Virus record (IMG/VR): IMGVR_UViG_3300021479_000209
Span: 1 to 20,297 of that record
Length of the DNA: 20,297 nucleotides
From: a virus
Strand: one strand, 5' to 3'
Part shown: piece by piece, positions 3,343 through 19,286 of the stretch
Position numbering within the stretch: the first letter of the stretch is position 1
Layout of the letters: each line of letters opens with the position of its first letter
Notes under the pieces: model-generated
The model's database searches: none
Told to the model about the DNA's origin: nothing
What the model saw: the letters and a program-made list of their open reading frames with translations, nothing else
Made by a program: the position numbers and the translations under genes

Positions 3343-3908
3343 GGGTTATTCGGCGCGCTCTGGAGCGCCGTCGTGAGGCGATTGGTCTCGACGTCCTGCT
3401 GGTCCTGCGCGGTCGGAAGGCCCTGCGAGACCGCGGGGAAGGCCGCGTCGGGCCTCGAGAGCGCGGGTTTCGGCCGCCGGTATTGCTTCATGTAGATTTG
3501 GCACGACCACCCGCCGTAGTCGTCGCCCTCGATCCCGTCGGCGTCCTCCACGACGCACTGGACGATCCGGATCGGGGGGCACGTGAGCTGCGGGTGCTGG
3601 ATCCCGAGCGCTCGAGGACGGATCGAGCCGGGCATGAAGCGGACGGACTTGTCGAAATACTTCGCGGCATAGGCCTCCCAAAGGGGATAGTCCGCCGGAT
3701 CCCAGAATTCAAAACGCATCGTGAACTTGCCGAGCGGATCGCCCTTCGGGACGAGCGTCGCGCCCGTGAGCGCGTACCCCTGGCGCTCGTCCCACCCGCG
3801 CGGCGAATTCGCGCCCAGGATCCGCACCTGGCCCGGGCTCTTGTCCCCGTTGATGACCACCCAATCGAGGATCGGGAAGTCCGGGGCGAGGATCGCCGGC
3901 TGGGTCAT
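3339..3908 (-). CDS. Distal tail protein of unknown family, after tape measure
   Basis: The gene encodes 189 residues and starts in an ATGA overlap with the end of the tape measure gene, so it is probably translated by coupling. The first 140 residues are mixed alpha/beta with many aromatics (FEFWDPADYPLWEAY, YGGWSCQIYMKQY). The last 45 residues are polar and Gln/Ala/Pro-rich and look flexible (RPDAAFPAVSQG, QDQQDVETN). There is no signal peptide or membrane segment. In Mu-like and P2-like tails this position holds a DNA-circulation or distal hub-adapter protein, but this chain is much shorter than Mu gp43. I therefore describe it only as a distal tail or baseplate-hub adapter, inferred from position. 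Confidence 0.8.
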   Translation of the reverse strand: MTQPAILAPDFPILDWVVINGDKSPGQVRILGANSPRGWDERQGYALTGATLVPKGDPLGKFTMRFEFWDPADYPLWEAYAAKYFDKSVRFMPGSIRPRALGIQHPQLTCPPIRIVQCVVEDADGIEGDDYGGWSCQIYMKQYRRPKPALSRPDAAFPAVSQGLPTAQDQQDVETNRLTTALQSAPNNP

Positions 3909-5827
3909 GTGGGCACCGGCGAGCTCGTGGGGATGCCGCCGGCCTGGGCGACGTTGCGCACGGCGCGTGTCAACTGCGCGAGGATCGAGGGCTCGGTGAT
4001 GGCGGCTGCGATCTCCTGTCCCTTGGTCTCGCTCGTCGCGTGGACGATGACGTGGACCTCTACGACCTCGCTCGAGCCGCGCCCACCCCCGCCAGCGGCC
4101 GCCTGGACCGCGACGGGCGCCCGCGCCGGGACCTGGGGGACCATGTCCTCGACGGCGTCCTGGGCCCCGCCGCCGTCCTTCTTGACGCCTCGAACGTAGC
4201 CCTCCGTGGACTCCTCGCCCTTCTGCTCGAACCAGCGGGACGGGGAGTGCGCATCGATCCCCTTTTTCCCGCTAAATGCGTCCTTGATCCACCCGGCGAG
4301 CGTTTCGGTGGCCTTGGTCACGGCGTACTTGCTCGCGGCGCCGGCGATCCCCGTCGCGAGGCCTTGCGAAATCTGCGCGCCGATCCCCGCGGCGCCGAGC
4401 GCGGCTTTCGGGGCGAAGTCGGGCGTACCCACCTTGGGGAGCGCGCCGCCGGTCGCGCCCTCGATGACCTCTTTGCCCACCGTCTCGACCGGATGCGCAC
4501 GGAAGTCGTTCCAGAGGTCGAGCAGGTGCTTGACCTCGATCGCCGCCTTCTGCACCCCGTGCAAAATGTCTTTGATGTCCGCGACCAGCTTGGTCGCGTC
4601 GATGTTCGCGAGCCGCGTCCCGAATTCCGTGAAGATCGCCTTGAGTGCCGCGCCGCTCGCCGTGCCCTCGTCGAACTGGGAGAGGATCTTGTCGAGCGCC
4701 CGGAGGAGCGGCTCGAGGATGGCGCCGCCGGCAAGCTGTTTCAGGTGATCGGAGAACTTCTGAAGCTGGACGTCGACCGAAAGGAGCTTCTTCGCGTTGA
4801 TGTCCCCGTAGCGCTCCTCGAGCGTCGCCTTGAGCGCCTTGGCGAAGGCGTTGGACTCGACGCGGTTCTCGTAGAGCGCCGCCATGGCCTCCTGGATCGG
4901 CACCTTGGTCTGCGCGGCGAGGTTTGCGGCGAGCTTCTGAATCTTGACGCCTGTCCCCTGGAGCTCGAATGCATTGGTACCGGCGCGCCCCCACATTTTG
5001 GCGCGATCGATCATCTCCCGGAAGGTATTGGAGACCTTGGAGCCCATCGCGGCGTCCGCGGTCCCGATCGCGGCGAAGGCGTCGAGGATGCCCTGGCCGG
5101 TGTAGGTGGTGTTATTGAGCGTCCGCGCCAGCTCGTCGCCGAGGTCGTGCGCGGCCTGGCGCGAGATCGGGAGCTTGCGCGAGATCCGATCGATCTGGTC
5201 GCCGAGGTTTTTCCCGTTCGCGACGCTCCCGGCGACGGCCTCGTCCATGATCCGGATGTTGCGATCGGCGTCCGCAGCCCCGACCGCCCACCGGGCGAGC
5301 GCGGCGGCCGCCGCGATGAACCCCACGCCCAGCGCCACCACGCCCGCCGTGAGGCCCGCGAGGAGGTAGGTCATGCCCTGGCCTCCCCCGATGATGGAGC
5401 GGGCCTTCTCGAGGCCGTCCGACCACCCCTTGACGGGTCCCCCGGCGGCCGCCAGGGCCATGTTCGCGAGCTGCTGACGCTCCCGGAGCTCGTCGGCGGC
5501 CGCCTTGGCGACCTGGGAGGCCTTCTTTTGCTTCTGCGCCAGCCGCTCATAGGTCACGCCGTGCTTGAGGAGCTGGAGGTTTGCGCGCGAGACTTTGTCC
5601 CGCTCGGCCTCGATCTTCGCGACGAGCATCTTTTTCGCGGCCAGGACGTCCGCCGTCTTGCCACGAAGGGCGCGCTGCGCCGAGCCCATCTCGCGCAGGG
5701 CATCGCTCGAGCCCTTGATCCGGTCCCGGAGCTTCTCGAGCTCGTCCGCGTACGCGCTCGCCTCCTCCGGACCGTCCCCGAGGTCCGTGGAGAGAGAGAA
5801 GCGTGCTTCCGCGTCATTCGCCGGCAC
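3905..5827 (-). CDS. Tail tape measure protein
   Basis: This 640-residue protein sets tail length and lines the tube before DNA ejection. The start is GTG at 5827. Residues 20-125 are charged and heptad-like, consistent with coiled coil (ELEKLRDRIKGSSDALREM). A strong hydrophobic segment at about 153-184 (TYLLAGLTAGVVALGVGF followed by Ala-rich helix) is the usual tape-measure membrane-type helix. Further helical repeats follow. Residues 527-546 hold the family C-terminal motif HSPSRWFEQKGEESTEGYV. A Gly-rich linker and a short beta/helical tail end the protein. It overlaps the frameshift product of the tail chaperone by 14 bases upstream and the next gene by ATGA downstream. At the usual 0.15 nm per residue the tail would be near 95 nm (inference). 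Confidence 0.93.
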   Translation of the reverse strand: MPANDAEARFSLSTDLGDGPEEASAYADELEKLRDRIKGSSDALREMGSAQRALRGKTADVLAAKKMLVAKIEAERDKVSRANLQLLKHGVTYERLAQKQKKASQVAKAAADELRERQQLANMALAAAGGPVKGWSDGLEKARSIIGGGQGMTYLLAGLTAGVVALGVGFIAAAAALARWAVGAADADRNIRIMDEAVAGSVANGKNLGDQIDRISRKLPISRQAAHDLGDELARTLNNTTYTGQGILDAFAAIGTADAAMGSKVSNTFREMIDRAKMWGRAGTNAFELQGTGVKIQKLAANLAAQTKVPIQEAMAALYENRVESNAFAKALKATLEERYGDINAKKLLSVDVQLQKFSDHLKQLAGGAILEPLLRALDKILSQFDEGTASGAALKAIFTEFGTRLANIDATKLVADIKDILHGVQKAAIEVKHLLDLWNDFRAHPVETVGKEVIEGATGGALPKVGTPDFAPKAALGAAGIGAQISQGLATGIAGAASKYAVTKATETLAGWIKDAFSGKKGIDAHSPSRWFEQKGEESTEGYVRGVKKDGGGAQDAVEDMVPQVPARAPVAVQAAAGGGGRGSSEVVEVHVIVHATSETKGQEIAAAITEPSILAQLTRAVRNVAQAGGIPTSSPVPT

Positions 5828-6472
5828 TGGGGAGCCTCCGCAGATGAGCCAAACCGTCGACCAAGAGAAGGGCGACCAAAAGGCCGCGTTCGTAACCGTC
5901 CGTTCCGAGGGCGTCCTCCTCGCCCACCAAGCCGAGGCCCTCGGCGAGGAGCTCGGCGGCCGCGAAGCGCTTGCGCGGCTGGTCGAGCGAGGAGAACTCC
6001 TTGAAACGGTCCGCTATTTTTTTTGGGCCTTGTCCTCCCAGAGGCCAAAGAGGGTCGAGACCGCGTCGACCAGCTTCGGCAGCAGAAACTTCCGGTTGAA
6101 AATGATCTCGTGGAGCTCCTTGGTGGACGGGTACTCCACGTTCGGGGTGACGAAGGCGATATCGTCCTCGTCGGTCGGGCTGTAATTGGCCTTTCGGAGC
6201 TTCGCCCGGTAGGCCTTCGCGGTGACCGCGTCACCGCGCTTGACGACGATCGGCCCGTGCGGGCCCGCGTCGACCAGGTCCCAGTCCTCCCCCCGGCGCC
6301 CGAACTTTTCGGTGTACTCGACCTCGAGCTCCGCCATGCGCAGCAGGCGATCTTCGTCCTCCGAATCGTTCTTCTTCTCGATCTCGTAGATCCGTCGCCG
6401 GAGCTCGGCGAGGCGCTCTTGCTTGGTGAGCGGCGCCCCCGGGGGCGCGCTCGAGGGGATCGTGTCGCTCAT
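5814..6472 (-). CDS. Tail assembly chaperone, -1 frameshift long form (about 219 residues)
   Basis: If ribosomes slip back one base on the A8 run at 6017-6024, residues 1-152 of the short form continue with codon ATA at 6017-6015 for another 67 residues and stop at TGA 5816-5814. The added part begins IADRFKEFSSLDQPRKRFAA and is well-behaved protein: amphipathic helices, then a hydrophobic YERGLLVALLLVDGLAHL and a short tail. Without this extension about 190 bases between the short form and the tape measure would be non-coding, which would be odd in so compact an operon. Many phages make a G/GT chaperone pair this way just upstream of the tape measure to help load it. Slippage itself is inferred; the open frame and slippery run are seen directly. 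Confidence 0.82.
6014..6025 (-). promoter_or_regulatory. -1 ribosomal slippery site ending in the zero-frame stop
   Basis: On the coding strand the site reads C AAA AAA AAT AG, i.e. codons CAA AAA AAA TAG in the zero frame. Two Lys-tRNAs on AAA AAA can re-pair one base back and then read ATA. The stop immediately after the slip site would pause the ribosome. I did not identify a stable downstream pseudoknot. Confidence 0.8.
6014..6472 (-). CDS. Tail assembly chaperone, zero-frame short form
   Basis: This form is 152 residues, highly charged, with an N-terminal helical region (LTKQERLAELRRRIYEIEKK) and a mixed C-terminal half (STKELHEIIFNRKFLLPKLV, then LFGLWEDKAQKK). ATG at 6472 has a good AAGGA about eight bases upstream. 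It lies between the tail tube and tape measure genes, the standard place for the G-type chaperone that keeps the tape measure soluble and recruits tube subunits. The TAG stop directly follows the A8 slippery run, so termination and frameshifting compete at the same spot. I saw no homology-level motif beyond this; the call rests on position, charge, size and frameshift architecture. Confidence 0.84.
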   Translation of the reverse strand: MSDTIPSSAPPGAPLTKQERLAELRRRIYEIEKKNDSEDEDRLLRMAELEVEYTEKFGRRGEDWDLVDAGPHGPIVVKRGDAVTAKAYRAKLRKANYSPTDEDDIAFVTPNVEYPSTKELHEIIFNRKFLLPKLVDAVSTLFGLWEDKAQKK

Positions 6473-6498: not shown

Positions 6499-6999
6499 TC
6501 AGCCGTTGCCGCCGAGGCCACGGATCACGGACCAGAGGCGCATGCCGTTGCGGGTCATTTGCAGGCCCCCAATGGTGACCTCGAGAAGGTTCTCCTCGAT
6601 GCCCTCCTCGTAAGTCACCTTGTCCCCGTCCCAGGTGCAGTCTTCAAAGACCATCGTGATCGGGATCGCGCCGGGCACGGGCTCGGAGACCTGGAGCAGA
6701 AAGGAAAAGTCGGCGTCGCCGTACGAGCCGAGCCCTTTTTGCGTGAGGTATTGCTGGAGCTCGAGCGCTTGGGCCTCGAACATTTTCACTGCCATGGGCT
6801 CGAGGCTGTACTTGCCTGGCGTCTTGCCGCGCGGTCGCCCGGTCTTCCGGTTGGAGTAGACGATCTTTCGCTCGCGCTTCTGCGCGTAGTCGACGGAGAC
6901 CACGTTCCAGGGGTTGCCCGAGGGCGTAGTCAGAAGGCCGTCAAACCGGAACTCGGTCGACGTCCAGCTGTAAATCGAAGTTCCTACACGGAGCGGCAT
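6499..6999 (-). CDS. Tail tube protein
   Basis: The protein is 166 residues, beta-rich and without signal or membrane segments. It directly follows the sheath gene, the universal sheath-tube order in contractile tails. ATG at 6999 is preceded by AGGAGA at eight bases, one of the best ribosome sites in the window and fitting for a high-copy protein. Sequence features that fit a tube fold are the early SWTSTEFRFDG strand, a basic loop KRERKIVYSNRKTGRPRGKT (residues 41-60), a central helix FEAQALELQQYL, and C-terminal strands NLLEVTIGGLQM. The basic loop could face DNA in the lumen (inference). Assignment is mainly by position and fold impression. Confidence 0.77.
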   Translation of the reverse strand: MPLRVGTSIYSWTSTEFRFDGLLTTPSGNPWNVVSVDYAQKRERKIVYSNRKTGRPRGKTPGKYSLEPMAVKMFEAQALELQQYLTQKGLGSYGDADFSFLLQVSEPVPGAIPITMVFEDCTWDGDKVTYEEGIEENLLEVTIGGLQMTRNGMRLWSVIRGLGGNG

Positions 7000-7026: not shown

Positions 7027-8550
7027 TTACGAGGCGAGCGGGATCTGGATCGTTCGCGTAATGCTCTTGACGAACTTCTGGACCGCGTTGATCCCCTTGA
7101 TGTACGCGAGCGCCTCGACGTTGATGTCCGCATTGAGGAACGCGCCCGCGTTGCTCGAGACGTCGTCGTCGCGGTGCAGCGTGGCCTGGACGTCGGTCAC
7201 CTGATTCTCGAGGGCCGCCGCAAGCTTCGTGTTGACGTCCCCGTCGATGGCGTCGAGGTCGGTCCCGAGTGCGTAGACTTTCCCCGTCGTGGGGTCCGGC
7301 TGGCCCTTGCGAAGCCCGCGAGAGAGCTGCGGCTGATAGAGCTGGAAGGCCTGGCCGCACGCCACGTTGGAGACGCGCGCGTGCTGGTCGTAGACAAAAT
7401 CGCTATTCGTGGGCGAACAGATATTCGCATTGTTGATGTACGTCCCCACCCGCCCAGGAACGCTCCGGAGCGTCGAGAGCTTGAGCGCATCGATTCCCGG
7501 ATAGACCTGCTCGTCATGCCACGCGGGCCCGGTGTTGGGATTCTGCGGGTCGGTGAGCTGGAAGCCCGGGATCGGGTTGAGCGCGATCCACGCCGGATCG
7601 ATTCCGACGGCCAGGGGGTTGGTGCGCGTCGCGATCGCGAGCGACGTTGGGCGGACCTGGAGCAGGCCCGTCACGTTCGAGGGCGAGTAGCCACCATCCG
7701 CGCCGACGTCGACGCGAATGGTCGGGCTCGTCGCGTTGATCGCGAGCGTGGTCAGTGCCGTCAGGTACGCGGCCTCGCTCTCCGTGCCCGGTACGGGTGT
7801 GTTCTTGTGACGCGTATTCATCCACGCCATGGCGTAGCGGCCCACGGCCTCGAGCCCGGAGAGCCACGAGTCCACGGTGGCGACCATGGTGGAGGTCGCG
7901 TCCGTGTCGATGAGGACGTTATCCCAGGGGATCGCCGTCGTGCGGAGAACCTCCAGCGCGGTCACGAGGTCCGCATTCGTCATCTTGGGGCGCGAGGTCT
8001 GAAAGCGGACGCGGTCGCCCGCGATGAGCGTCCCCGCGGCAAAGTTCAGCGTCGCGCCCGTCGACCCGGCGGCCGCCGGCTTTTGGACATTGAGGACCAG
8101 CGTGGTCGCGGTCCCGAGGGCGAAGGGCCCATAGAACGTATTGCCGTTGTCCAGGCTGTACTGGTAGGTGATCCCGATCGTGCCGATCGTCCCCCCGGTG
8201 AGCACTTGCCACACGACGTCGTAGTCATCGAAGGGCGCGCCCGTCGCGGTGATGACGGAGGTCCCCGTGACCTTGGACACGTCGACCGTGCCGCAGAGTC
8301 CCGCCGTGGAGCACGACGGCGAGATCAAGAGCACCGGCTTTTTGGCCGTGTTGATGTAGTACGCGCTGTACTCGAGGCCCGGGCCGAGCCCTCCCTGACT
8401 CAGAATGTCCCCTTGCTTGGTGAAGGAGAAAGCCTGATTCGGGACGAGGCTGTGCACGAACGCGATGATCGCCAGGACCCCCGTCGTCGCCGGTTGGGTG
8501 ACTCCGGTATTGCCGTCGCTCTTGGACACATTGACGTTCGGGGTACCCAT
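7027..8550 (-). CDS. Contractile tail sheath protein
   Basis: This 507-residue protein forms the outer contractile sleeve around the tube. ATG at 8550 has AGGAG seven bases upstream. The N-terminal 60 residues include a hydrophobic strand (TTGVLAIIAFVHSLVP). Residues about 96-188 are a beta-type module with ITYQYSLDNGNTFYGPF and LNFAAGTLIAGDRVRF. Residues 190-330 are alpha/beta. The C-terminal third has the sheath-type pattern YPGIDALKLSTLRSVPGRVG followed by TYINNANI and long terminal helices ending TIQIPLAS. Size and the tube gene directly downstream agree. It resembles the DUF2586-type sheaths of high-GC phages (from memory, not searched). The module is discussed separately because a similar one appears in the neck protein at 10279. 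Confidence 0.82.
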   Translation of the reverse strand: MGTPNVNVSKSDGNTGVTQPATTGVLAIIAFVHSLVPNQAFSFTKQGDILSQGGLGPGLEYSAYYINTAKKPVLLISPSCSTAGLCGTVDVSKVTGTSVITATGAPFDDYDVVWQVLTGGTIGTIGITYQYSLDNGNTFYGPFALGTATTLVLNVQKPAAAGSTGATLNFAAGTLIAGDRVRFQTSRPKMTNADLVTALEVLRTTAIPWDNVLIDTDATSTMVATVDSWLSGLEAVGRYAMAWMNTRHKNTPVPGTESEAAYLTALTTLAINATSPTIRVDVGADGGYSPSNVTGLLQVRPTSLAIATRTNPLAVGIDPAWIALNPIPGFQLTDPQNPNTGPAWHDEQVYPGIDALKLSTLRSVPGRVGTYINNANICSPTNSDFVYDQHARVSNVACGQAFQLYQPQLSRGLRKGQPDPTTGKVYALGTDLDAIDGDVNTKLAAALENQVTDVQATLHRDDDVSSNAGAFLNADINVEALAYIKGINAVQKFVKSITRTIQIPLAS

Positions 8551-14083: not shown

Positions 14084-15519
14084 CAGGCGGCCCTCCGGAC
14101 GTCGGGCACGTCCTCGCCCGGCGGGCGATAGAGCTCGGAGCGCTGGCGCGCGCGCTCGATAAGGCGATCCTGCCGATCCTTGAGCTCGGTGATCTGGCGG
14201 ACCCGCGCCTGATACCCCTCGACGCTCGGGGCATCGCCCTTGAGCGCGCGCACGGGGATCCCGTAGCGGACCATCATTTCGTCGATGTCCACTTCGCGGC
14301 CGTACTTCGCGAGGAGCTCCTGGACCTTGGCGATCGCCTCGGCGGCCGCGCCCATCGATTCGGCCTCCGCCTTGAGATCCTTGGGGCGCCGCGAGTCGTA
14401 TTCCACGATCGCGCCCGTCTGGATCGCGTCGACGCCCCAACGCGATCCGATGAGCGCGGGCAAGGCCTGGCAATTCACCGTGTGCGCGAGGTTGTGCGCG
14501 GCGCGCGTGATCTTGTCCCCGCGGATCAGGCGATGAATGTCCGAGTTTTGGAAGCCGGCGCCGCCGTCGACGGTGACCACCTGGCCGCAGATGGCGATCG
14601 CGGCCTCGCGGTCGCTCGTGTCGATGTCCTGCTGAAAGACCTGGTAGCCCTCGCCCTTGGATTCGAGCAGGCCCACGTCCCAGCCGGCGGGGAGCTCAAA
14701 CACGGTATTCACGCCCCACGCCATGAGCCGCGCGAGCATGCCCATGCGGTCGGGCTCGCTCGCGCCCGCCGGCGCCTTGGAGTAGCGCGCGGCGTTCGCG
14801 AGCTTCATTCCGTAGTTTGCGCGATGCAGGATGGCATGTTCCTTGTTGACGTACGCGCGTCCGAGGCACAGCCAATTTGCAGCCATCCACGGGGCGACGC
14901 GCGCCCGCGAGTGAAGGATCCAGCGGCCGTCCCCGGGAGTGATCGGGAGCGTCGCTGCGACGCTGTTGTAGTACCATCGGTTCTCCTGCCACCGGTAGCG
15001 CAGGAACTCCGGCTCGAGCCGGATCATGATGGGAAAGTCGCGCCCCTCGACGGGCACGAGCTCGGCGACCGAAACGCCGATCTTCTCCTCGTCGTCCAGC
15101 ATGAGCTCGAGCTCGGACGGGGGGAGCATGTCGTCGTAGACGGAGCGCGAGCCGTTGCGCGCCTCGAGCGCCTCGATCTGGTCGAGGGGCCCATAGAACT
15201 TGCGCGGGAGCGCGACAACGCCCGAGGTCAGCGTGGACATGAGCCCCGAGATCGTGCCGTCGCGGCGCATCGCGCGGGCGAGCCGCGCAATGATCTCGAT
15301 GTTGCCGCTATCCGCGTTCGATTGCGCGACCTCGAGGTCCGCGAGATACCATCGAAGCTTGGTGAGCGGAATGGGGACGAGCTGCCCGCCCATCGCCTCG
15401 CGGATCCGCTTGACCACCGGGTCGTCGAGGTCCAGGCCGCGCGCCGGCGCCTGGTCGTACGCGCTCACCCCGAGCAGCGCGGACCGCAGCTTGTCGCGGA
15501 GGACGTCGCGGAGACCCAC
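14083..15519 (-). CDS. Portal protein (DUF935 / Mu gp29-like)
   Basis: The protein is 478 residues. It forms the ring at the packaging vertex to which the terminase docks. N-terminal helical and strand elements are followed by KLRWYLADLEVAQSNADSG and LSTLTSGVV. The segments FLRYRWQENRWYYNS (near 172-186) and RAYVNKEHAILHRANYGMKL match the DUF935-type 'G......w......k.......w...ae.fG' core. The C-terminal region is long helical, charged (QARVRQITELKDRQDRLIER). The best start is GTG at 15519; only a weak CCGGAT lies before it. An internal ATG at codon 43 has no better site. It overlaps the protease start by TGATG. Note that the gene immediately upstream in the genome (61-aa HTH) lies on the other strand, so this gene either needs its own promoter or is read by transcripts crossing that unit. 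Confidence 0.85.
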   Translation of the reverse strand: MGLRDVLRDKLRSALLGVSAYDQAPARGLDLDDPVVKRIREAMGGQLVPIPLTKLRWYLADLEVAQSNADSGNIEIIARLARAMRRDGTISGLMSTLTSGVVALPRKFYGPLDQIEALEARNGSRSVYDDMLPPSELELMLDDEEKIGVSVAELVPVEGRDFPIMIRLEPEFLRYRWQENRWYYNSVAATLPITPGDGRWILHSRARVAPWMAANWLCLGRAYVNKEHAILHRANYGMKLANAARYSKAPAGASEPDRMGMLARLMAWGVNTVFELPAGWDVGLLESKGEGYQVFQQDIDTSDREAAIAICGQVVTVDGGAGFQNSDIHRLIRGDKITRAAHNLAHTVNCQALPALIGSRWGVDAIQTGAIVEYDSRRPKDLKAEAESMGAAAEAIAKVQELLAKYGREVDIDEMMVRYGIPVRALKGDAPSVEGYQARVRQITELKDRQDRLIERARQRSELYRPPGEDVPDVRRAA

Positions 15520-15610: not shown

Positions 15611-15796
15611 ATGGGCGCACCCACACGGATCAAGAATGCCACCGTCTTGCGGCTCGCGGCCGAGTCGAACCGCGACCCGCGCACCGTGCGTCGGGCGATC
15701 GCCGGCGACCCCAAGGTGAGCGAGAACAGCCGCGAGGCCATCATCAAGGCGGCCGCCCAGCTCGGGGTCGAGCTTCCTGACCCCACGAAGCCCTAA
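15611..15796 (+). CDS. Mini LacI-type HTH DNA-binding protein (reverse-oriented)
   Basis: This is the only believable + strand gene. It encodes 61 residues, almost entirely one DNA-binding domain: TVLRLAAESNRDPRTVRRAI (residues 11-30), then PKVSENSREAIIKAAAQLGV (34-53). This is the layout of a LacI-type helix-turn-helix with the 'RVS..tR..I..AA..LG' third helix, and the sensor domain is absent. AGGGA lies just before the ATG with a short spacer. It ends shortly before a strong terminator. The opposite-strand frame across the same bases reads as Ala/Arg/Ser-rich shadow and lacks motifs. It probably represses or activates a nearby promoter, possibly its own or the portal's, through the inverted repeat (inference). 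Confidence 0.78.
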   Translation: MGAPTRIKNATVLRLAAESNRDPRTVRRAIAGDPKVSENSREAIIKAAAQLGVELPDPTKP

Positions 15797-18334: not shown

Positions 18335-18547
18335 CTAGGGCCCACGCGGCCGAGCCCACCGGACCACCTGAGCGCAGCTCGAACAGCGGGCCTCCGGGCT
18401 CGGCTTGGCGGTTGTCATGTGCTGCTCGCCGCAGTCCTCGCACTGGACGCGCCACACGGGCCACATGCCGGCCCGCCAGTTCGCTGGGCGGACGATCCCG
18501 AGATCGATCAAGGTTCGTGCAATTTGTACCGTTCTCCGGTCCCGCAC
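18335..18547 (-). CDS. Small zinc-ribbon protein
   Basis: The protein has 70 residues with C36-x2-C39 and C55-x2-C58, a classic zinc ribbon with a 15-residue loop. A basic, helical N-terminus (RRTVQIARTLIDLGIV) and an aromatic WRAGMWPVWRV precede it. GTG at 18547 has AGGGGA eight bases upstream, although it overlaps the sigma4 gene by 40 bases. TTG at 18511 in a TTGA overlap with that gene's stop is the alternative start and would give 58 residues. Its size and Cys layout recall Com-type small regulators of Mu, but no mom-like gene is visible and I do not claim homology. It may bind nucleic acid. Confidence 0.72.
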   Translation of the reverse strand: MRDRRTVQIARTLIDLGIVRPANWRAGMWPVWRVQCEDCGEQHMTTAKPSPEARCSSCAQVVRWARPRGP

Positions 18548-18954
18548 AAGTCGTTCCCCTGGTCGACCAGATCCGGGCCCATCTTGGCCAGCGCGGACGC
18601 CTGCAGCTGGCGCACCCGCTCGCGCGTCACCCCGAGGATCTCCCCGACCTCCTCCAGCGTGTGCGGCGTCTCCGCGAGGTCGAGGGAGCAGGTATGCGCC
18701 AGCTCATCGAGCTCGGCATGGCCGTACCGGTACGAAAGGTTTCCGCTGCGCTCTTGGACCTCGAGGAAGAGATGGTGCCTACACCCGACGAACGGACAGG
18801 GGCGCCGCCCGTCGACGCAATCGGCGCGCGTCTGCGGTCGCTCGAACGTCTCCGGGTATTCCGAGCCCATAAGGAACACCCGACGCTTTGCGCCCCGGAG
18901 GTTTTCGCCCTTCGAAAGGCGCGGGCCTCGATGGCCTCCTCTCACGCGGGGCAT
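18508..18954 (-). CDS. Orphan sigma-70 region 4-like DNA-binding protein
   Basis: The protein has 148 residues from ATG 18954, which overlaps the previous gene by 13 bases. Starts at codon 29 (18870) or the nearby GTG are possible but have no better ribosome site. Residues 98-125 (HTLEEVGEILGVTRERVRQ followed by LQASALAKM) are a clear region 4.2 helix-turn-helix that in sigma factors binds the -35 element. No region 2 is present. Before it, residues 44-63 carry RADCVDGRRPCPFVGCRHHL, with three Cys and two His that could bind metal; I have a memory of this segment in similar orphan proteins of Myxococcota. It probably adjusts host RNA polymerase for phage transcription (inference). Confidence 0.8.
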   Translation of the reverse strand: MPRVRGGHRGPRLSKGENLRGAKRRVFLMGSEYPETFERPQTRADCVDGRRPCPFVGCRHHLFLEVQERSGNLSYRYGHAELDELAHTCSLDLAETPHTLEEVGEILGVTRERVRQLQASALAKMGPDLVDQGNDLCGTGERYKLHEP

Positions 18955-19286
18955 GAGCCCGGGGTCCCGTCCTCGTCGCCATCGCACAGGCACGGGCCCG
19001 CATGGCCCGGCCACCGGTTGCACCACCCGCCACACTCCAGGCTCTTGTTGCAGCACATCGTCCGTCGCTCGCGATCGAGAAGGCTCTCTGTCCTGAGTTT
19101 CTCACGGTAGAAGACCAGCCAAAGCGACGACCCGTGCGTGACAAGCGAGAGGGCACCGGCCGCGACCAAGGTCCGGATCGGGAGACCGCTCTCCAGGAGA
19201 GAGAGGAGCTCAGGGGACACTGTCGAGGCCGGCCACTTGGACGTGAGCTCCCATGAGCGCTGGTCCTCTATGTCCTTACCGATCAT
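18942..19286 (-). CDS. Small protein with hydrophobic segment and Cys-rich C-terminus
   Basis: The 114-residue protein starts in an ATGA overlap with the XRE-type gene. Residues 38-60 are mostly hydrophobic (LVAAGALSLVTHGSSLWLVF) and may be one membrane helix, followed by a basic REKLRTESLLDRERR. The last 38 residues hold seven Cys (C78, C79, C85, C89, C99, C101, C112) and a GHAGPC element of the kind seen in small metal-binding phage proteins. Sequence upstream in this frame is a shadow of the XRE-type gene. No function can be assigned. A small membrane-anchored metal or disulfide protein is a reasonable description. Confidence 0.66.
   Translation of the reverse strand: MIGKDIEDQRSWELTSKWPASTVSPELLSLLESGLPIRTLVAAGALSLVTHGSSLWLVFYREKLRTESLLDRERRTMCCNKSLECGGWCNRWPGHAGPCLCDGDEDGTPGSCPA

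Follow-up and report, generated by a model that had tools for sequence, protein, structure and literature searches.

The window, by which we mean the whole 20,297-bp stretch of DNA analysed here (68% GC), is an IMG/VR virus record whose minus strand encodes a Mu-like virion module, comprising a terminase (matching phrog_2), a Mu-type portal (PF06074, E=2e-31), a sheath, a putative tube, a chaperone, a tape measure and baseplate J. The chaperone gene immediately precedes the tape measure gene and follows the tube gene, the latter being assigned by position; a family search with the putative tube protein (6499..6999) gave no match of its own. Searches for Rfam families and tRNAs across the window found none. 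Elsewhere in the window, two ORFs resemble regulators, judged by eye only: the C-terminal part (EEVGEILGVTRERVRQLQASALAKM) of a minus-strand ORF at 18508-19056 resembles sigma-70 region 4 and possibly belongs to a phage late regulator, and a small plus-strand ORF at 15611-15796, opposite the minus-strand virion genes, looks like a short LacI-type helix-turn-helix regulator. The features of the tail region are as follows.

3905..5827, minus strand: tape measure protein, GTG start (phrog_1686 tail length tape measure, E=3e-6)
5814..6017, minus strand: predicted -1 frame extension (T-type), 67 codons and TGA (translation; leave-one-out profile; homology to the Mx4, MMP7 and Riverbug extensions)
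6014..6016, minus strand: zero-frame stop TAG, right after the slip site (sequence)
6014..6472, minus strand: zero-frame tail assembly chaperone (G-type), 152 aa (ORF homologous to the chaperones of relatives)
6017..6023, minus strand: in-register -1 slippery heptamer A AAA AAA, within the A8 run 6017-6024 (sequence; in-register heptamer in 12/12 closest relatives)
6034..6039, minus strand: Shine-Dalgarno-like GGGAGG, about 10 nt 5' of the heptamer, a possible dnaX-like stimulator (duplex energy -10.2 kcal/mol)
6499..6999, minus strand: probable tail tube protein (position and size between sheath and chaperone, like XkdM in MMP7)
7027..8550, minus strand: tail sheath, DUF2586 (PF10758, E=1.3e-12; phrog_907)

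A preliminary description of this DNA had proposed that an A8 run allows a -1 shift at the end of the chaperone gene, fusing two halves of the protein. The anatomy on which it relied is confirmed to the base. The chaperone ORF starts with ATG at 6472, runs for 152 codons and ends ...GCC CAA AAA AAA TAG; the eight A's occupy 6024-6017, with A AAA AAA (6023-6017) as the working heptamer, and constitute the sole A/T run of at least six in the window. Read from 6017 in the -1 frame, the extension (IADRFKEFSSLDQPRKRFAAAELLAEG...RRLPSAGE) has 67 codons before a TGA at 5816-5814, and overlaps by 14 nt the start of the tape measure gene, whose GTG at 5827 has a GGAGG 7 nt upstream. An open -1 frame is by itself weak evidence at 68% GC, and within the 186-nt segment the majority of frames on either strand are open. 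As open frames are so common at this composition, conservation in relatives was used as the test. The GC content by codon position in the -1 frame (0.77/0.42/0.85) resembles that of the flanking genes, for instance the tape measure gene (0.68/0.47/0.90), with the caveat that an antisense frame yields a mirror image.

Searches of viral contigs with the chaperone or the sheath singly returned no relatives, and with the terminase a single remote contig. An alignment of four sheaths yielded 102 loci from genomes and viral contigs, the closest having 47% sheath identity; among cultured phages, Mx4, MMP7/MMP17 and Riverbug have the most similar sheaths (25-28% identity). At these loci the arrangement of ORFs from sheath to tape measure was established before any heptamers were sought. 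All 12 closest usable loci (L005, L030-L037, L039, L040, L047), which represent about ten independent lineages as L033, L034 and L037 are near-identical, have an in-register heptamer within the last 2-3 chaperone codons and a -1 extension of 57-72 aa ending at most 15 nt from the tape measure start. The heptamer is G GGA AAA in 11 of them; L047, a separate lineage, has A AAA AAA in an identical CAA AAA AAA TAG. The same arrangement is found at 14 more distant loci, including Mx4, which brings to 26 the relatives with a heptamer of the form A AAA AA[A/G] or G GGA AAA and a -1 frame running on to the tape measure. For each of the 26, the heptamer's zero frame is the chaperone frame according to the chaperone profile, and the zero-frame stop is a few codons at most from the heptamer. 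The background frequency of in-register A AAA AA[AG] or G GGA AA[AG] is 19 per 47,551 tape-measure codons. The conservation of the -1 frame in related phages, one of the checks suggested by the preliminary description, is therefore borne out.

Several loci were not counted. The automatic heptamer filter let through L014, L017 and L097; the zero frame of the first two is unsupported by the chaperone profile, which gave no match to the third. L021-L027, from Lachnospiraceae and related prophages, have A AAA AAG in register at the end of the chaperone ORF and a -1 extension of 78-79 aa, which stops 70-110 nt before the tape measure and is unmatched by the family's extension profile; they perhaps form a separate frameshift lineage. 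One relative, on the other hand, counts against the proposed frameshift: at L064 the A run is interrupted (GCA AAA ATA) and the -1 frame is still open, although its near twin L063 has an intact run (GCAAAAAAAGG in L063 vs GCAAAAATAGG at L064:10380-10430), a difference that reflects either natural variation or an assembly error.

The refuting condition named in the preliminary description concerned relatives in which the A run is broken, and here too the outcome favours the frameshift. Relatives that lack the run keep the extension, and GGGAAAA, CGA AAA or a +1/-2 UUU C signal takes the place of the run. GGGAAAA is also seen at the -1 junction of L008. Five loci (L009, L081, L082, L100, L101) have CGA AAA at a -1 junction, with the stop at once or one codon later and no classic heptamer; the Bacillus subtilis cdd frameshift site, as cited in PMC5009743, is CGA AAG, near this motif. 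In MMP7 and Riverbug, and at 12 further loci (L006, L011, L042, L044-L046, L052-L055, L059, L065), it is the +1/-2 frame that carries the extension, and NNN UUU C is found where the chaperone ORF ends, which suggests from the sequences that the Thermus/Meiothermus-type relatives use a +1 (or -2) shift in place of -1. The relatives of this type with a conserved NNN UUU C comprise L001, L003 and the same 12 loci.

The proteins are conserved along with the junction. A leave-one-out chaperone profile, built from the 12 close relatives with the window excluded, finds the window chaperone with E=2.7e-21, and when an extension profile that likewise excluded the window was run against its six-frame segments, the -1 frame came first (E=2.9e-4; next best 0.094), a match that is modest (15 bits) though significant. 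Both parts are homologous across the family: comparison of the window clade with Mx4, MMP7 and Riverbug gave a probability of 98% and E=2.7e-13 for the chaperones (hhalign), and 95% and E=1.9e-8 for the extensions (profile-profile). The extension is also under coding constraint. Among L033, L034 and L037, codon changes in the -1 frame are synonymous to non-synonymous in ratios of 12:2, 4:0 and 15:2, while in the other two frames 0-2 changes are synonymous and almost all are non-synonymous.

In structural comparison, tail assembly chaperone folds rank highest for the window chaperone, though short of significance. The AlphaFold model of the zero-frame protein has a pLDDT of 86, and its Foldseek neighbours, all with E>0.3, include the HK97 chaperone 2ob9 in first place, 3fgx in third (probability 0.87, target TM 0.67) and YqbN 3klu in fifth; RBSTP2171 is among the best structural neighbours together with the HK97 tail assembly chaperone and YqbN, none of them E-value-significant. 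A search of solved structures with the sequences of the window clade gave no convincing match, and the Mx4/MMP7/Riverbug profile matches 3fgx with E=2e-4. For the extension, three helices are predicted with moderate confidence (pLDDT 74); a structural search with this model gave no meaningful match.

We propose, with a probability of roughly 0.93, that the gene encodes a G/GT-type tail assembly chaperone with a programmed -1 frameshift and two predicted products. This identification, already made in the preliminary description, is supported by the position between tube and tape measure, the in-register heptamer, and a -1 extension conserved in every close relative. In the mechanism that we envisage, most ribosomes would terminate at TAG and release the 152-aa chaperone (G). 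In a minority, tRNA-Lys on AAA AAA would slip back by one base and pair again on A AAA AAA, and translation of 67 more codons would give a protein of about 219 aa (G-T). The fusion put forward earlier is therefore retained, and its products are better described as a short protein and a minority extended protein than as two halves. In lambda-type G/GT systems, gpG and gpGT both associate with the tape measure, and it is the T part that recruits the tube subunits (PMC5009743). By analogy with lambda, both products may associate with the tape measure protein, and the extension, predicted to be all-helical, may recruit tail tube subunits, so that assembly of the tube begins at the right length. 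That slippage occurs and is ribosomal, its rate, and this division of labour between the products are what we infer. In Escherichia coli reporters, shifting was about 10% at a 7-A site (A AAA AAA) taken from another gene and 6-7% with phage chaperone cassettes (PMC3711429).

The same two products could arise if RNA polymerase slipped on the A8 run, an mRNA with an extra A giving the fusion by ordinary translation and the unedited mRNA giving the short chaperone. The run in the window, with its 8 A's, falls within the range of bacterial A runs (>7) implicated in transcriptional realignment (PMC3711429), and an A11 run in tssM undergoes transcriptional slippage (PMC4256274). This origin is nonetheless unlikely. 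G GGA AAA, the heptamer of L005, L030-L037, L039 and L040, has only four A's, and it is the presence of this site in most close relatives that leads us to favour the ribosome over the polymerase, on sequence grounds, for the A8 run of the window. Other relatives keep the same extension behind a junction with CGA AAA or UUU C, and as all three types of site serve that extension, the mechanism across the family is probably ribosomal.

The alternative of an independent small gene, with translation re-initiating past the chaperone stop or beginning at an internal start of the segment, would be compatible with the stop just upstream, which could permit re-initiation, and with the annotation of the segment as an ORF distinct from the chaperone in Mx4, MMP7 and Riverbug. 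We consider it very improbable: the first 30 codons of the extension segment contain no ATG, GTG or TTG (the first is at reverse-complement position 14368), so an internal start would lose the conserved beginning of the extension, whose conservation reaches back as far as the slip codons, and the in-register heptamer would be superfluous. Even less credible is that the gene is really one continuous frame, broken in the A run by an indel from sequencing or assembly. Errors are frequent in homopolymers, and the window, a virus contig deposited in a public collection, may not be well supported by reads; however, the same split occurs in separate contigs and in a finished phage genome (Mx4), often without a homopolymer longer than four, and a constitutive fusion gives no reason for a conserved heptamer beside a zero-frame stop. 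Chance, in the form of an ordinary intergenic gap with an accidental A run and an open frame of the kind common in 68% GC DNA, can practically be dismissed, as frame, position, heptamer and protein sequence are all conserved in relatives.

The programmed frameshift that we favour has close parallels in known phages. As in lambda gpG/gpGT and its counterparts in dsDNA tailed phages, the gene lies between those for the major tail (tube) protein and the tape measure, a -1 heptamer ends the first ORF, and a short product would be accompanied by a minority, C-terminally extended one. The window differs from lambda in its heptamer, A AAA AAA followed directly by UAG, in its contractile tail, and in that no sequence similarity to gpG was detected; comparison with known chaperone families likewise gave no detectable sequence match. 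With the myoviruses P2 and Mu the window shares the order sheath, tube, chaperone, tape measure, and its portal is of Mu type, but Mu uses a -2 shift and not -1. Homologues of both chaperone and extension are found in the Myxococcus phage Mx4 and, with XkdN-like (PBSX-like) chaperones, in the Meiothermus phage MMP7 and the Thermus phage Riverbug. Mx4 shares the in-register A8 slip site, whereas in MMP7 and Riverbug entry into the extension would require a +1/-2 shift near UUU C; compared with all three, the window chaperone has a longer N-terminus.

To judge from sequence, the finding is real and was correctly interpreted in the preliminary description, and the G/GT kind itself is already well known: frameshifting at the position between tube and tape measure is established, and tail chaperones are known to use -1, -2 or +1 shifts depending on the phage (PMC5009743). 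What is added is a conserved, unannotated G/GT frameshift in a branch of Mu-like contractile phages, with relatives in Acidobacteriaceae, Myxococcota, Meiothermus/Thermus and many metagenome contigs. Reference records of the lineage carry no frameshift annotation, and for cultured phages, Mx4 among them, the finding would put the annotation right. The earlier expectation that standard gene calling would miss the extension thus holds for the fusion, but not for the segment itself, which in Mx4, MMP7 and Riverbug is annotated as a small hypothetical ORF with a later start. The Mx4 announcements mention neither a frameshift nor the chaperone, and our literature search, whose coverage is incomplete and leaves absence unproven, found no paper on a frameshift in the window's lineage.

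The diversity of signals is an extension of a known theme. With A AAA AAA, G GGA AAA and CGA AAA (-1) on the window's side of the family, and +1/-2 UUU C in the Thermus/Meiothermus phages, we think it probable that a single homologous chaperone family has repeatedly swapped its frameshift signal, and even the direction of the shift, while keeping the extension. If so, the family would be a natural series for studying the evolution of programmed frameshift sites. The slip site adjoining a stop codon also provides a clean assay cassette, and several slip sites in the family serve the same protein.

Possible stimulators of the shift were sought on both sides of the slip site; RNA elements of this kind, either a downstream stem or pseudoknot or an upstream SD, are frequent in such systems without being required. 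A dnaX-like stimulator would sit about 10 nt 5' of the slip site, which is where GGGAGG occurs in the window. This motif, to judge from synonymous shuffles, is accounted for by the amino acids encoded: 90% of the shuffles are equally strong, and the motif is not conserved in relatives. Downstream of the slip site in the window, folding does not differ from that of synonymous controls (z=0.0 by pseudoknot-free MFE). The stop codon adjoining the slip site may itself slow the ribosome and aid the shift. Strong downstream hairpins are present in a few relatives, namely L043 (z=-4.7), L091 (z=-3.2) and L063 (z=-2.7).
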